Source: Candidatus Nitrosocosmicus sp. (GTDB lineage: Archaea; Thermoproteota; Nitrososphaeria; Nitrososphaerales; Nitrososphaeraceae). Taken from it: DNA of 64,000 nucleotides. The notes beneath the pieces were generated by a model that worked only from the letters and a program-made list of their open reading frames with translations, was not told where the DNA came from and did not search any database. Made by a program: the position numbers and the translations under genes. Shown piece by piece: positions 1 to 8,670 of the stretch. How positions within the stretch are numbered: position 1 is the first letter of the stretch; the number at the start of each line of letters is the position of its first letter. Location of the stretch: assembly GCA_031177355.1 (NCBI GenBank), contig JAPSGR010000003.1, forward strand, positions 1 to 64,000. Reading direction: 5' to 3'.

Positions 1-122
1 ACAACCTTCCGTAAGGAGAAGGGCGGCCATAGAAGATGGCGTTGATGGAATGGAGGTGTAATTATCAAGCCTTCGGGCGAGGTATTCAGCCTGCCATCAC
101 CAATAGCCCAACGCACCTGAAT
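1..122 (+). rRNA. 23S ribosomal RNA, 3' end (partial)
   Basis: This is the extreme 3' portion of the large-subunit rRNA; the rest lies left of the window. The string AAGATGGCGTTGATGG at 34-49 and the later CTGCCATCACCAATAG at 91-106 match, by recall, the conserved end of 23S rRNA (E. coli ...GACGACGTTGATAGG... and ...CUAACCGGUACUAAUG...). The mature 3' end is placed by analogy at about 115-130; the processing stem cannot be checked because the 5' end is missing. No 5S rRNA follows. An open frame across this region is a chance product. Confidence 0.8.
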
Positions 123-284
123 CAAGTGAAACTTTTTCACTGCAACGTTGCTACTGGTTACAAAGTATTTGCTCTGACTTATTTCATGCGTAAAGAATAC
201 TATTCTAAGTTAATCATATGGAATATTATTTGATGGAGTTATATCCTATATTTCAACTATAAAATTTATCATTCCTTTTGAGTA

Positions 285-328: not shown

Positions 329-1156
329 ATGAGCCTGGTATTCAATCCACAGAATATAGACCAAGAAAAAATGGAATTTATTGAAATACTCGGATACAAT
401 ATTCGATATCTGAGATTCCAAAAAAAAGGCTCAAGTAAAACTATTGTATTACTTCATGGTTTAGGAGCCTCAGCAGAAAGGTGGTCGGAACTCTGTCCCC
501 TAATGCAAAAATATGAGGTTATAGTCCCAGATCTTATAGGATTTGGTTATAGTGACAAACCACTACTCGAATATACTATAGATTTCTTTGTTAAATTCCT
601 TGATGAATTTTTTAAGAAATTAAACATTAACAATCCCATAATCATTGGTTCATCCTTTGGTGGACAATTAGTGCTAGAATACAGTTTGAAAAATAGGGAT
701 TTTTTTGAAAAAATAATCCTAGTTTCACCAGCAGGTACTCTTGAAAGACCAACTTATGTTTTGAGTCAATATATTTTCTCTGGGTTATATCCCACAATGG
801 AAAATGTTGCAAGTGCCTTTCAAATGATGGCTAATAATCCGGATTACAAAGTAGACGATTGGACAATAAAGGATTATGTTAATAGGATGAGACTTCCTAA
901 CGCAAAATATGCCCTGATATCTACCTTGCTGGCCATGCGACGAGACCAGACTCTACAAAAAAGACTAGTAGAAATTGCAATACCAACCCTTGTTATCTGG
1001 GGCAGTGAAGATACAACTATACCAATCGAGAATATAGAATATTTTAAGCAAATGCCTATTGTTCAGACACATATAATGGAAGGATGTGGTCACACACCGT
1101 ATGTTGAGAAACCCAGTGAATTTTATGAGATAATTGAAAAATTCATAGAATCTTAG
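329..1156 (+). CDS. alpha/beta-fold hydrolase
   Basis: A 275-residue alpha/beta hydrolase. The nucleophile elbow is GSSFG (Ser109), the oxyanion-side HG motif is LLHGLG near residue 43, the acid is in WGSED, and the catalytic His is in GCGHTPY near the C-terminus, so the triad looks intact. No signal peptide or membrane segment is visible, so it is probably cytoplasmic. An in-frame ATG at 278 would add 17 residues, but the A-box at 285-300 favours 329. Its place beside an AbrB-type phasin and PHA synthase genes suggests a PHA-depolymerase or thioesterase role. That is inference only, since the fold covers many esterases and C-C hydrolases. Confidence 0.85.
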   Translation: MSLVFNPQNIDQEKMEFIEILGYNIRYLRFQKKGSSKTIVLLHGLGASAERWSELCPLMQKYEVIVPDLIGFGYSDKPLLEYTIDFFVKFLDEFFKKLNINNPIIIGSSFGGQLVLEYSLKNRDFFEKIILVSPAGTLERPTYVLSQYIFSGLYPTMENVASAFQMMANNPDYKVDDWTIKDYVNRMRLPNAKYALISTLLAMRRDQTLQKRLVEIAIPTLVIWGSEDTTIPIENIEYFKQMPIVQTHIMEGCGHTPYVEKPSEFYEIIEKFIES

Positions 1157-1177
1157 AGGACGTTAAAATAATTACAA

Positions 1178-1189
1178 CATTAAAATATT
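1178..1189 (+). promoter_or_regulatory. A-box-like element before the phasin gene
   Basis: An AT-rich element (ATTAAAATATTG) centred about 30 bases before the ATG at 1214 fits an archaeal A-box for a leaderless message. The phasin may therefore have its own promoter instead of reading through from the hydrolase, which ends 57 bases upstream. Confidence 0.35.
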
Positions 1190-1213
1190 GAACTACTGAA
1201 TATTTAATATAGA

Positions 1214-1531
1214 ATGAGCAATGAAAATGAAAACGAGAATTCCAAATCCGGCATTGATGTGAAGAAAACTATAGAAAAGACAGCAGAATTCCAGCAAGAC
1301 ATGATGAGACAATTTTCTAATTTTCAATATAACGCGTTTCAGAACATGTTTTCATCACTACAAGGATTCACTAATTATAATGCAATGTTTAAGACTAACG
1401 TTCAGAGTGGTGGTAGAATATCCATACCAGAGGCAGAAAGACAAGCATTAGGAATCGAAGAAGGAGACCTAGTACAGGTAATAATTATACCATTAGCAAG
1501 AAAGCAAAAATCAGGCAACAAAAACAACTGA
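1214..1531 (+). CDS. phaP: PHA granule-associated phasin with AbrB/SpoVT domain
   Basis: A 105-residue protein in two parts. Residues 20-55 form a Gln/Phe/Met-rich amphipathic helix (EFQQDMMRQFSNFQ and following), as in phasins that coat polyester granules. Residues 66-95 form a swapped-hairpin AbrB/SpoVT domain (GGRISIPEAERQALGIEEGD). This combination is known for haloarchaeal PhaP, where the protein coats granules and may also bind DNA. The stop codon lies two bases from the end of the convergent phaC gene, tying it to the PHA locus. Function is inferred from domains and context. The alternative is an AbrB-type regulator with no granule role. Confidence 0.7.
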   Translation: MSNENENENSKSGIDVKKTIEKTAEFQQDMMRQFSNFQYNAFQNMFSSLQGFTNYNAMFKTNVQSGGRISIPEAERQALGIEEGDLVQVIIIPLARKQKSGNKNN

Positions 1532-1533
1532 CG

Positions 1534-2619
1534 TTAATGGATCTTTATCCAGTTGCCTACCTTGGGCAAAACAACATTTTGAGAATATCCACTCGCAATT
1601 AGTCCCACATGACCGGTAGAGAAACGCATCAAATTAGTATCAGTACTTGAGACGATTTTGTTTAGGGCTACACTGCATTCAGGAGATACTAGGTGATCTT
1701 GGTCGGCTACTAAATTTAACAAAGGTACTTTGACGTTTGATAGATTAATCCTATTTTCACCGATGACCAGTTTATTTTTTGCAAATAAATTCTTCTGGTA
1801 GATATCCTTAATCCATTGTCTAAACGTCTCACCAGCGATGGGTGGGGTATCATAAAGCCATTTTTCGACTCTCAGGAAGTTTTGAATGAAGTTTTCGTCT
1901 GTTAAGTTATTAAACAAATTAAGGTATTTACTAACACCTTGTTTGAATGGTTTTAGAGAGGCGTAACAACTGTATAAAAGCTCATAGGGAAAATTTTCAT
2001 AATAAGATAATACTTTGTCTATATCCATATGCTGGGCCATGTTTTTTATCACCGTCGTATCCTTATCGGTATCTACAACCGGTGCTACCGTTATCAAATT
2101 TTTGACGTTTTTCTGATGCAAGGAAGTATAAATTAATGACATTGTAGCACCCATACAATACCCCTGTAGAGAAACCATATCAATATTTTCTATATTTTTT
2201 ATTAATTCAACGCATTCGTATAGAAATAAATTGACGTAATCATCTATGGTAGTAAATTTATCAAATTTTCCTGGTGGCTTCCAATCTATCAGATACACAT
2301 TGATACCTTGATCCAAGAAATTTTTTACCCAACTTTTGTTTGGTTGGAGATCTAAAATGTATGACTTGTTAATTAATGCATATACTATTAGAAGTGGATA
2401 TTTGTATGCACGTTCTTTTGTAGGTTTGTAATGTAGTAGCCTGTAGAGGTTAGTTTCTCTGATGACTTCATATTCGGTGGTCCCTGTCTCAATTTTTTCG
2501 ATGTCGGATAACAGTCGCTTCATTTCTGTTATTCTGTGAAAGTTCTCAGGTTGATTTACAAAATTTATACATTCGTTAAGATAATAATCAATAATAGTCT
2601 TAGTCATTTTTTCTCTCAT
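1534..2619 (-). CDS. phaC: class III poly(3-hydroxyalkanoate) synthase, catalytic subunit
   Basis: PhaC polymerises 3-hydroxyacyl-CoA into PHA on the granule surface and needs PhaE as partner in class III enzymes. The lipase-like box GYCMGA carries catalytic Cys155, with Asp308 (ADQDH) and His337 (TGHVG) completing the triad. Their spacing (153 and 29 residues) equals that recalled for Allochromatium vinosum PhaC (C149, D302, H331). Length 361 is normal for class III. It follows phaE with a 20-base overlap, so the two are co-transcribed. The start is ATG at 2619; ATG at 2607 is a close alternative that still overlaps phaE. Confidence 0.93.
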   Translation of the reverse strand: MREKMTKTIIDYYLNECINFVNQPENFHRITEMKRLLSDIEKIETGTTEYEVIRETNLYRLLHYKPTKERAYKYPLLIVYALINKSYILDLQPNKSWVKNFLDQGINVYLIDWKPPGKFDKFTTIDDYVNLFLYECVELIKNIENIDMVSLQGYCMGATMSLIYTSLHQKNVKNLITVAPVVDTDKDTTVIKNMAQHMDIDKVLSYYENFPYELLYSCYASLKPFKQGVSKYLNLFNNLTDENFIQNFLRVEKWLYDTPPIAGETFRQWIKDIYQKNLFAKNKLVIGENRINLSNVKVPLLNLVADQDHLVSPECSVALNKIVSSTDTNLMRFSTGHVGLIASGYSQNVVLPKVGNWIKIH

Positions 2620-3181
2620 TTATCCTGTTTCTAATTTCAAGTGAAATTTTCTTTATTTCATATAGATTGTTGAACAATAAATCTTTTTCTTCTTTTGAAA
2701 ATGACTGTTTATTCAGAAATGGTATTGAAGACTCGTAAAATTTTTGGTAACTCTTATTTAAATCAATGATAATGTTTACGAGATTGTTATAGTTTATAGA
2801 AAAATCATCAGATTCAAACATAGAAGAGAAAACATCTTCAAACGAATTTATTATATGTTTTCGGACATCTTCAGAGTCCTTGCTTTCGATTCCTTCAGAT
2901 ACCTTTTCTAAAGCAAGAAAATAGGAATTAATCATTTGAGTCAAATATTTATTTAAAAAAATTTGATAATTAATCAAAGTGTTTCCATATTCTCTCATAT
3001 TATTCAAATTTATTTGAGGATCATTGATCAATGAGATAAATGGTCCAATTGTAGAAATCTTATTTAGTTCTGTGAGTTGTTTATAGAAATTTTCGAATAG
3101 ACTGACAAATTTTTCATTCACTCGGGGCAGGCTAGTAGAGTCGTTTTTTTCTTTTTTTTGAGTATCATCACTGTTCTGCAA
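2600..3181 (-). CDS. phaE: class III PHA synthase subunit PhaE
   Basis: A 193-residue, almost all-helical and highly charged protein directly upstream of phaC and overlapping it by 20 bases, which is the position of the PhaE subunit of class III synthases. PhaE families diverge strongly and the assignment rests mainly on this linkage, size and helical character. The C-terminal stretch (LLFNNLYEIKKISLEIRNRI) resembles the end of PhaE/PhaR-type subunits. The start is TTG, with a GAGGTG ribosome-binding site ten bases upstream on the minus strand. Archaeal PhaE is needed for activity of its PhaC in haloarchaea. Confidence 0.75.
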   Translation of the reverse strand: MQNSDDTQKKEKNDSTSLPRVNEKFVSLFENFYKQLTELNKISTIGPFISLINDPQINLNNMREYGNTLINYQIFLNKYLTQMINSYFLALEKVSEGIESKDSEDVRKHIINSFEDVFSSMFESDDFSINYNNLVNIIIDLNKSYQKFYESSIPFLNKQSFSKEEKDLLFNNLYEIKKISLEIRNRINERKND

Positions 3182-3806: not shown

Positions 3807-3903
3807 GGGTCCGTAGCTCAGCATGGATAGAGCGCCTGCCTTCTATCTCCAAGCATACAAGGAAGAAAGCCGGAAGTCGAGGGATCGAAGCCCTTCGGGC
3901 CCG
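3807..3903 (+). tRNA. tRNA-Arg (anticodon TCT) with intron
   Basis: The acceptor arm GGGTCCG (3807-3813) pairs with CGGGCCC (3896-3902), followed by discriminator G3903; CCA is not encoded. The D arm is GCTC/GAGC, the anticodon loop is CTTCTA+A with anticodon TCT at 3842-3844, and the T stem is GAGGG/CCCTT. Removing the 22-base intron leaves 75 bases. The anticodon stem CCTGC/GCCGG has one T-C mismatch at 29:41, and the T loop ATCGAAG starts with A54, so this is a slightly unusual but probably functional tRNA. It decodes AGA/AGG. Confidence 0.85.
3846..3867 (+). other. tRNA intron with bulge-helix-bulge motif (position 37/38)
   Basis: A bulge-helix-bulge splice motif can be drawn exactly. 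CTTC (3840-3843) pairs with GAAG (3862-3865), leaving three-base bulges TAT (3844-3846) and AAA (3866-3868). Cutting after the second base of each bulge releases 3846-3867 and joins positions 37 and 38 of the tRNA. The likely processing enzyme, an archaeal splicing endonuclease, is encoded at 37.8 kb. Confidence 0.8.
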
Positions 3904-6062: not shown

Positions 6063-6422
6063 CTAATTCTTTCCTTTACTTATTGGAAGAAATCAATTCT
6101 AAATTAAGGTTAAGTCTTTTTAATCTTTGCAATTATCCATTAAGCATGAAACTTAAATTAGAACAAAGAAGGATTAAGAAAGAAAGAAGCATCCCAATGA
6201 TCAGAGCGAATTAATTTATGTAACCAATCTTCCAAGGAGAACGGTTCGGACCTCAATTGAGGAATTGAAGGATGAACGTCCAATAAAATGAAAAAAATTT
6301 CAATTTACATAGAAATGATTGCATATATTAATTCTCATTATGATATTAAGAAATAAATAAGATAAGAACTAGAAATCGAACAAAATTGATATACGGGCGA
6401 TCTGATAGTATAAAAGATTTCT
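6063..6422. other. intergenic region before the ABC permease, with a 12-base palindrome
   Basis: About 360 non-coding bases between divergent genes. A perfect palindrome CCTCAATTGAGG lies at 6251-6262, flanked by GTTC (6244-6247) and GAAC (6275-6278). A TATAAAA string at 6411-6417 is too close to the permease TTG start to act as its A-box unless translation starts elsewhere. The palindrome could be an operator for transporter control; this is inference. Confidence 0.35.
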
Positions 6423-7352
6423 TTGAAAATATTCTCGACAGACAACAATGAACGTAATTACAAGAGCAAAGTTGATCGCGAGATTGGATCTAATACAATA
6501 GAAGAATCCGAAATCAGTCCGTCGAGAAGAGTTAAACAAGAAAAAAAGAGTTCTTTTAGAAGCCGAGTCAGAATAGAAGAAATCTCAAATACAATTTTGT
6601 TTATTGCTATTTTTATAGGGATTTGGCAAATTGCTTATTTAAGTGGAATTTGGCCCGAGGTATCATTACCCTCACCTATAATGGTGGTGGAATCATTTTA
6701 TGATCTAATCAAAGAAAATACACTGCTAGTAAGTATTGGAATGACGCTTTATAGGCTGTTAATTGGGTTTGCAGCATCAATTGGTATTGGTGTTAGTATT
6801 GGACTGGCTATGGTAAAGTTTTCTGCATTTGGCAAAACAATGAGTTCATTTGCAATAGGGTTACAGTCATTTCCCAGCGTAGCATGGGTCCCCTTTGCTA
6901 TTTTGCTTATAGGATTGAATGATCTAGGAATTTTATTTGTAGTTATTATGAGTTCAGTATTTTCAGTAATGATGTCAGCATACAGTGGTATACGAAATAT
7001 ACCGCCAATTTATCTAAAGGCTGCGAAAAACATGGGAGCAAAGGGTTTCTCTTTATTTAGATACCTGATGATCCCAGCAGCTACTCCGGCATTGATAATA
7101 GGAATTAAACAAGCATGGTCATTTGCCTGGCACGCTCTGGTAGGGGCTGAAATATTAATGGCCGCCTCTATGGGAATAGGGCATATATTATTGGTCGGAA
7201 GGGAATTTCAACAAATGGATCAGATTATAGCATCAATGATCACTATTTTTGCCCTCGGAATGATATTTGATAAAATTATATTTGCTAAATTGGAAGATAA
7301 AGTTAGAGAAAAGTGGGGATTAAGACAGGAGCAAGACGTAGAGAAAAAGTAA
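6423..7352 (+). CDS. ABC transporter permease, nitrate/sulfonate/taurine type
   Basis: A 309-residue permease of the SsuC/TauC/NrtB family (BPD_transp_1 fold) in the cytoplasmic membrane. A charged N-terminal tail of about 55 residues precedes six membrane helices beginning at ISNTILFIAIFIGIW. The cytoplasmic coupling loop is seen near residues 200-216 (AAKNMGAKGFSLFRYLMIPA), the EAA-type contact for the ATPase. The binding protein follows, but no ATPase gene is adjacent; the matching one is probably at 26.4 kb. The start is TTG at 6423. No in-frame ATG lies nearby, so the exact start is uncertain. Substrate cannot be fixed between sulfonates, nitrate and similar anions. Confidence 0.88.
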   Translation: MKIFSTDNNERNYKSKVDREIGSNTIEESEISPSRRVKQEKKSSFRSRVRIEEISNTILFIAIFIGIWQIAYLSGIWPEVSLPSPIMVVESFYDLIKENTLLVSIGMTLYRLLIGFAASIGIGVSIGLAMVKFSAFGKTMSSFAIGLQSFPSVAWVPFAILLIGLNDLGILFVVIMSSVFSVMMSAYSGIRNIPPIYLKAAKNMGAKGFSLFRYLMIPAATPALIIGIKQAWSFAWHALVGAEILMAASMGIGHILLVGREFQQMDQIIASMITIFALGMIFDKIIFAKLEDKVREKWGLRQEQDVEKK

Positions 7353-7506
7353 AAATAGCGATTCGCATTAAAACCTGAATTATATATGACATTTGGCGTG
7401 GATTTTATCCTGGAATCAGGGAACATTGCAAAATATTCATGCATTTCGCATTTTCTGCCTATTTCAAATTACTAATAGATGGTTTGTATTAAAATCTATT
7501 AACTTC

Positions 7507-8670
7507 ATGGATTCGAAAGTGAAATTAGGTATATCTTTTGCAATTATAATAGCAGTTATAGTAACCTCTTACTCCAATTTTGATTATTCATTGTTATCTG
7601 GTCAAAACTCACTTACCAAAGAATCTGGTGTCCGAGGCAGTTTTACAAAATCAGATACCTTAAAGATTGGATATTTTCCTATCATTTCTCATTCTCAAGC
7701 AGTTATAGGATTGAACAATGGTGAATTTGAGAAAACGTTGGGGAATAATGTTAAAATGGAAACTTTTAGGTTTAATTCGGGTCCATCAGCTATAGAATCC
7801 TTATTGGCTGGCAGGATCGATGTTACGTATATTGGCCCTAACCCAGCAATCAATGGATATTTACTTTCAGGTGGTGAGGATGTGAGAGTTATATCAGGCG
7901 CATCAAGCGGGGGTGCTTCTTTTGTGGTAAGAAATGACTCAGGAATTGAAACAGTAAATGACTTAGGCGGTAAAAAGTTTGCAACGCCGCAGTTAGGCAA
8001 TACACAAGATGTCGCATTAAGAAAATATTTGATGAATAATGGCTTTAACACGGTTGAGAATGGAGGAAATGTAACAGTTTTGGCCATTGCTAATCCGGAC
8101 ATCTTAACTGTTTTCCTTAAGGGAGAAATTGATGGTGCATGGGTACCGGAGCCATGGGCAACAAGATTAATACAAGAAGCGGGGGGTAAAGTTTTGCTTG
8201 ATGAAAGAAATCTGTGGCCGGATGGTAAATTTGTCACCGCCAACATAATTGTGAGAACGGATTATTTACAAAACAATCCCGATATTATCAAAAGACTATT
8301 GGATGCCCATGTTGATGAAACTCTGAGGATAAATAGCAACATTTCTGCTGCTGCAGTAGAATTCAATAATCAGTTAAAAAAGATAACAGGTCAGCAAATT
8401 GCTCCAGAGGTATTGGATAAAGCATTCTCCAACTTGGAAATAACATATGATCCATTGAAGTCCACCCTCTACAAAAGTGCAAATGACGCATATGACATTG
8501 GGTTTATTGAAAAAGGAAAGGAAAGACCAAATCTTTCTGGTATCTATGATACAACTATATTAAATGAAGTTCTTGATGAAAAAGGCCTTACACCAGTTAA
8601 TGAGGTAGATGGAGCAGATGCAAGAGGCAATACAACACTACCAAATGCACCCCTTGATGTGACGCATTAG
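7507..8670 (+). CDS. ABC transporter substrate-binding protein, nitrate/sulfonate/taurine type
   Basis: A 387-residue extracytoplasmic binding protein. Residues 6-22 are a hydrophobic signal/anchor (LGISFAIIIAVIVTSY) without a clear lipobox Cys. The mature part shows the SsuA/NrtA-like two-lobe pattern: LKIGYFPIISHSQAVIG, then RIDVTYIGPNPAINGY, DLGGKKFATPQLGNTQD and DGAWVPEPWA. These are ligand-contact regions in aliphatic sulfonate and nitrate binding proteins. I chose ATG 7507 because a longer frame from 7393 would put 38 extra residues before the signal. It follows the permease by 154 bases. The exact ligand is not determinable. Confidence 0.88.
   Translation: MDSKVKLGISFAIIIAVIVTSYSNFDYSLLSGQNSLTKESGVRGSFTKSDTLKIGYFPIISHSQAVIGLNNGEFEKTLGNNVKMETFRFNSGPSAIESLLAGRIDVTYIGPNPAINGYLLSGGEDVRVISGASSGGASFVVRNDSGIETVNDLGGKKFATPQLGNTQDVALRKYLMNNGFNTVENGGNVTVLAIANPDILTVFLKGEIDGAWVPEPWATRLIQEAGGKVLLDERNLWPDGKFVTANIIVRTDYLQNNPDIIKRLLDAHVDETLRINSNISAAAVEFNNQLKKITGQQIAPEVLDKAFSNLEITYDPLKSTLYKSANDAYDIGFIEKGKERPNLSGIYDTTILNEVLDEKGLTPVNEVDGADARGNTTLPNAPLDVTH

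Follow-up and report, generated by a model that had tools for sequence, protein, structure and literature searches.

A PHA locus of Candidatus Nitrosocosmicus pairs a class III synthase with a PhaR-like AbrB protein and a linked candidate mobilising hydrolase

Altogether our analysis indicates that the start of a Candidatus Nitrosocosmicus contig (JAPSGR010000003.1, of which we analysed a 64,000-nucleotide stretch, the window) carries a known kind of PHA locus with one undescribed component, an alpha/beta hydrolase. With a probability of roughly 0.55, we favor a model in which this is a PHA granule locus that encodes the PhaEC synthase, a PhaR-type AbrB regulator and a mobilising hydrolase, with the granule coat provided mainly by a separate family of phasin-like proteins. 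Ammonia-oxidizing archaea (AOA) rank with Earth's most abundant autotrophs, and a hydrolase that is linked to and co-inherited with their synthase genes makes the mobilisation of their stored carbon directly testable.

The window opens in the 3′ end of a 23S rRNA gene (1–123, plus strand; RF02540, 65.9 bits). The genes for the hydrolase (275 aa, 329–1156) and the AbrB-domain protein (105 aa, 1214–1531) follow on the plus strand and face phaC (361 aa, 1534–2619) and phaE (193 aa, 2600–3181) on the minus strand, and all four open reading frames lie where a first-pass annotation had placed them. The AbrB stop codon ends at 1531 and that of phaC begins at 1534, so two bases separate the convergent genes, as that annotation had said. 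phaC starts with ATG at 2619 and phaE with TTG; the hydrolase has alternative starts at an upstream TTG (278) and an internal ATG (371). A promoter and terminator scan of the locus gave no informative signal. Because the four-gene arrangement recurs across the AOA order, we do not regard it as a product of chance. The AbrB protein has its nearest named relatives mostly in Candidatus Nitrosocosmicus genomes (84–88% identical), which places the host, an AOA, in or near that genus. The starts of several related Nitrosocosmicus contigs likewise fall shortly before the hydrolase gene, a pattern that assembly breaks at the rRNA operon would produce. One record titled Nitrosopumilus sp. (L097) has a locus whose four proteins are each 75–88% identical to their Nitrosocosmicus counterparts, and its label or binning is therefore probably wrong. 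Further along the window, a tRNA gene with an apparent anticodon-loop intron lies at 3807–3903 (Rfam, 40 bits; missed by ARAGORN).

PhaC scores 475.4 bits against the class III synthase model TIGR01836, above the curated cut-off of 365.3, and has the triad Cys155 (GYCMG), Asp308 and His337, invariant in all 25 aligned members. The class III spacing claimed for this triad from the start is confirmed: the intervals of 153 and 29 residues equal those of the Allochromatium vinosum enzyme, whose triad we take to be 149/302/331. PhaE reaches 16.9 bits against PF09712, below the cut-off of 25.7, and the search within its own genome gave no match. The gene does lie directly upstream of phaC and overlaps it by 20 nt, and its relatives outside the genus, which score about 20–53 bits, nonetheless sit beside phaC across AOA. 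Judged by these comparisons PhaE is a fast-diverging protein, and we call it PhaE-like by position and co-occurrence only; the original phaE call thus agrees with position and overlap but not with the profile. The PhaC score and the AOA context uphold the proposal of a synthesis module in an autotrophic archaeon. phaEC in AOA is already in print and not new (PMC4084955, PMC5797428, PMC11082331, PMC7554672); according to the accessible text, one of these papers puts its gain in the AOA ancestor, and another study describes a drop in Nitrososphaera viennensis PhaE and PhaC under carbon limitation (PMC12542715), which we count in favor of the granule model. Synthesis had been called complete, which fits the synthase but does not extend to monomer supply, as no MaoC/PhaJ-type hydratase was matched in this genome; monomers are suggested, in the part of the source available, to come from the 3HP/4HB cycle (PMC3835317).

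Two further observations concern the synthase genes. The same genome encodes another PhaC-like protein, 464 aa long (G000:C100, about 6310–7700; L002 1477–2871, minus strand; L189) in which Ser replaces the catalytic Cys (GYSWGG). Among AOA paralogs of this type Cys is kept in 18 of 20 and Ser is found in two, this one counted; the Ser-bearing paralog may have arisen from a synthase and now be a hydrolase. In marine loci a DUF6659 gene lies beside phaE (L084 409–774; 61.6 bits, cut-off 27), and two open reading frames resemble it by look alone (L135 7427–7795; L079 1106–1492, the latter between AbrB and phaC).

The argument for the hydrolase draws on its distribution across 150 genomes of the class, 113 within the order and 37 outside it. 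Within the order, 101 genomes bear the AbrB protein, 105 the hydrolase, 105 phaC and 103 phaE, and the spread of the hydrolase rules out that it is peculiar to this genome. From the eight order genomes without phaC, three of them single-contig assemblies, AbrB, phaE and the phasin-like family described below are absent throughout; seven of these genomes also lack the hydrolase, and the eighth (G146) has a weak match (7.7e-13). Weak hydrolase matches occur in 7 of the 37 genomes outside the order. Fisher values for co-occurrence range from 1.8e-11 to 1.6e-9; both these values and the underlying counts ignore phylogeny. Among the matches listed, with score thresholds of about 165 bits (hydrolase) and 330 bits (PhaC), AbrB and the hydrolase are at most 1.5 kb apart in 82 of the 101 genomes that have AbrB, hydrolase and phaC, and in a further 13 the hydrolase is at most 1.5 kb from phaC, for a total of 95 of 101 within that distance of one or the other. 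In the six exceptions the genes either lie on separate contigs (G037, G086, G148) or are apart on one contig (G133, G137, G142).

This proximity is kept through at least four gene orders. In the window and in most other genomes the order is hydrolase–AbrB followed by convergent phaC; in seven genomes of the family AbrB is convergent with the hydrolase and phaC lies 10–494 kb away or on another contig; a third order has the hydrolase beyond phaE, on the far side; and in a fourth it is convergent with phaC with AbrB 2–9 kb off. Such repeated adjacency, together with its absence from seven of the eight phaC-less genomes, argues against the idea that an unrelated ester is the substrate and that the hydrolase holds its place through inherited synteny while a patatin-like protein mobilises PHA as in haloarchaea. 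This genome does encode three patatin proteins, and the available text of a review describes a patatin-like depolymerase, PhaZh1, in Haloferax mediterranei (PMC7137286), but we consider this explanation quite improbable. Linkage and co-occurrence thus strengthen the earlier suggestion of possible depolymerisation, with the activity itself still a candidate one. Separately, one genome carries a second, diverged hydrolase copy outside the main locus (G094:C43:38722–40010), about 100 nt from a phasin-like gene that converges on it.

The hydrolase (PF00561, 101 bits) has the alpha/beta fold (model pLDDT 89.3) and Ser-Asp-His triad expected of a depolymerase. The triad, Ser109 (GSSFG), Asp228 and His255, had been described as intact in a hydrolase preceding the AbrB gene, and both points hold; it is invariant across all 36 members aligned (the alignments were drawn from 46 named loci, of which an open-reading-frame rule kept 43 AbrB, 35 hydrolase and 24 PhaC proteins). 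Neither PHA depolymerase model was reached: NF050089 gave 88 bits against a cut-off of 300 and TIGR02240 gave 32.6 against 250.6. Family and structure searches do not discriminate, ranking C–C bond (meta-cleavage) hydrolases first and esterases next, with the Bacillus thuringiensis PHB depolymerase (8ynv/8ynw) among the structural neighbors but not the best. We count both the sub-cut-off models and the nearest structures against the depolymerase reading and, since the fold is generic, PHA is a putative substrate. These matches would also suit an enzyme of PHA metabolism with another task: it could be a thioesterase or a chain-release esterase, trimming acyl-CoA or detaching the chain from PhaC. 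Linkage and co-occurrence fit this reading just as well. Such a role would, however, leave the AOA cluster without a depolymerase, and a Bacillus PHB depolymerase is itself a structural neighbor; we think it unlikely. Canonical PHA depolymerases are reported to be absent from AOA in the accessible part of a 2013 paper (PMC3835317), and this absence combined with the linkage makes the hydrolase a strong candidate for the missing enzyme, the PHA depolymerase of AOA or a hydrolase of PHA oligomers. More tentatively, and at somewhat less than even odds, we propose that it is the founding member of a new intracellular PHA depolymerase family, which the AOA ancestor gained together with PhaEC, and that it forms one granule system with a PhaR-type AbrB protein and an AOA-specific phasin family. 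If this were true, the hydrolase would complete carbon storage in AOA by adding the mobilisation half that has been missing.

The AbrB protein resembles its AbrB-domain counterpart in the pha cluster of Haloferax larsenii, the sequence likeness by which we recognise a PhaR-type protein. The best BLASTP segment has 34 of 59 positions identical, identity is 55–58% over 55–59 aa, and HHalign gives the pair 99.6% over 55 columns. The match spans the AbrB half of the protein; a looser whole-length alignment, with composition adjustment off, gives 37% over 111 positions. Curated AbrB models were not reached (23.1 bits, cut-off 28.3), and its Pfam matches, taken to E 0.1, include no phasin family (PF05597 or PF09361). 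AbrB domains fold as a swapped dimer, which perhaps explains the poor structure model (pLDDT 63, pTM 0.30). Among the matches listed, AbrB lies at most 1.5 kb from phaC in 89 of 101 genomes, convergent in all of them, which rules out a plain transcription factor unrelated to PHA. In the available text of a review, haloarchaeal PhaR is an AbrB-like protein that locates to granules and represses phaRP (PMC7137286). Because the match is to the protein at the haloarchaeal PhaR position, the AbrB protein is best read, on sequence grounds, as the counterpart of PhaR, a granule-associated regulator and not a structural phasin; it adds a new member to a kind already known.

The structural coat appears to lie elsewhere. 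Four marine-type loci (L084, L135, L081, L082) have an extra gene of 137–141 codons between AbrB and phaC, and a profile built from these four proteins finds relatives in 104 of the 150 genomes; neither the 37 from outside the order nor the eight order genomes without phaC have any. This phasin-like gene is directly downstream of AbrB on the same strand, with a median gap of 14 nt, in 73 of 101 AbrB-bearing order genomes (103 AbrB genomes less two with weak matches outside the order; the main phasin-like place listed for each genome was counted). The family (A1) has sub-cut-off Pfam matches only, to assorted helical families, and HHalign does not link it to haloarchaeal PhaP (probability 0.2). 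We observe it as a helical family specific to AOA; it accompanies phaC, and a genome often has several copies (L084 2531–2956, L135 5329–5751, G000:C41:23583–23972).

In this genome the phasin-like gene is absent from the locus, and members of the family are encoded on two other contigs, C41 (164 codons, 4.8e-14) and, more weakly, C44 (3.5e-5). The first-pass description of a complete coat at this locus consequently fails, and that of an "AbrB phasin" survives for AbrB, as a match at the PhaR position, but not for phasin, another family holding the phasin position in most AOA. Since the phasin-like gene is missing here, the AbrB protein might nevertheless be the main structural phasin of this genus. 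It has a long predicted N-terminal helix (residues 11–55, low confidence) and is moderately amphipathic, with a best 18-residue moment of 0.548 that 2.3% of 2000 shuffles reach. Yet the genome still encodes the two phasin-like members, the C41 protein is 95–98% identical in the two other aligned genomes of the genus, and haloarchaea have the AbrB protein and the phasin as separate proteins. We therefore doubt that AbrB forms the coat; its conservation in the genus makes the C41 protein the better candidate.

From genes, families, linkage and co-occurrence, which are observed, we infer every biochemical step of the granule system that we favor. PhaC and PhaE, by family, would polymerise (R)-3-hydroxyacyl-CoA through Cys155. 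The AbrB protein could rest its N-terminal helix on the granule and its AbrB domain on DNA, tying expression to granule amount. We envision that under carbon shortage the Ser-Asp-His hydrolase frees 3-hydroxyacids from the polymer or from oligomers and so stands in for the depolymerases missing from AOA. The coat would consist mainly of the phasin-like family, whose gene lies in the cluster in most AOA but at other genomic sites in this genus. The likely granule proteins of AOA are those of the AbrB and phasin-like families. As far as the accessible text of the sources goes, Raman spectroscopy gave no PHA in Nitrosotenuis N4 (PMC3835317), which we weigh against the model, and signs of PHA in AOA in another study (PMC11082331). 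Our search of the literature on AOA phasins, AbrB proteins and depolymerases, incomplete in coverage, returned no AOA hydrolase, AbrB protein or phasin-like family reported as PHA genes.

Among known systems, the haloarchaeal pha cluster (maoC/phaJ-phaR-phaP-phaE-phaC in Haloferax) shares with this locus the class III PhaE–PhaC pair and the AbrB-domain PhaR, the latter by a clear sequence match. It differs in that here the AbrB gene runs towards phaC from the opposite strand, the hydrolase lies upstream, and the locus has neither phaJ nor a phasin gene. The Haloferax larsenii cluster reads AbrB-phasin-phaE-phaC, a second phaC locus of Haloferax mediterranei (H9) is without phaR, and two other plasmid records (H7, H4) have no annotated AbrB gene, so that the AbrB-phaE-phaC order is found in one of four plasmid records. 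The class III synthases of Nitrososphaera, Nitrosopumilus and Nitrosocaldus share phaEC with this locus, and the accessible parts of the published accounts make no mention of the AbrB protein, the phasin-like gene or the hydrolase (PMC4084955, PMC5797428, PMC11082331, PMC7554672). The Bacillus intracellular scl-PHA depolymerase PhaZ (NF050089; PDB 8ynv) has the same alpha/beta hydrolase fold as our hydrolase (against 8ynw, VIA Z 28.2, rmsd 2.4, 251 aligned), but identity is about 20% and the score of 88 is far under the 300-bit cut-off. The best matches in both sequence and structure are the meta-cleavage hydrolases CarC (1j1i) and DxnB2 (4lxg), at 21–27% identity; unlike these enzymes, the hydrolase described here is linked to PHA genes.
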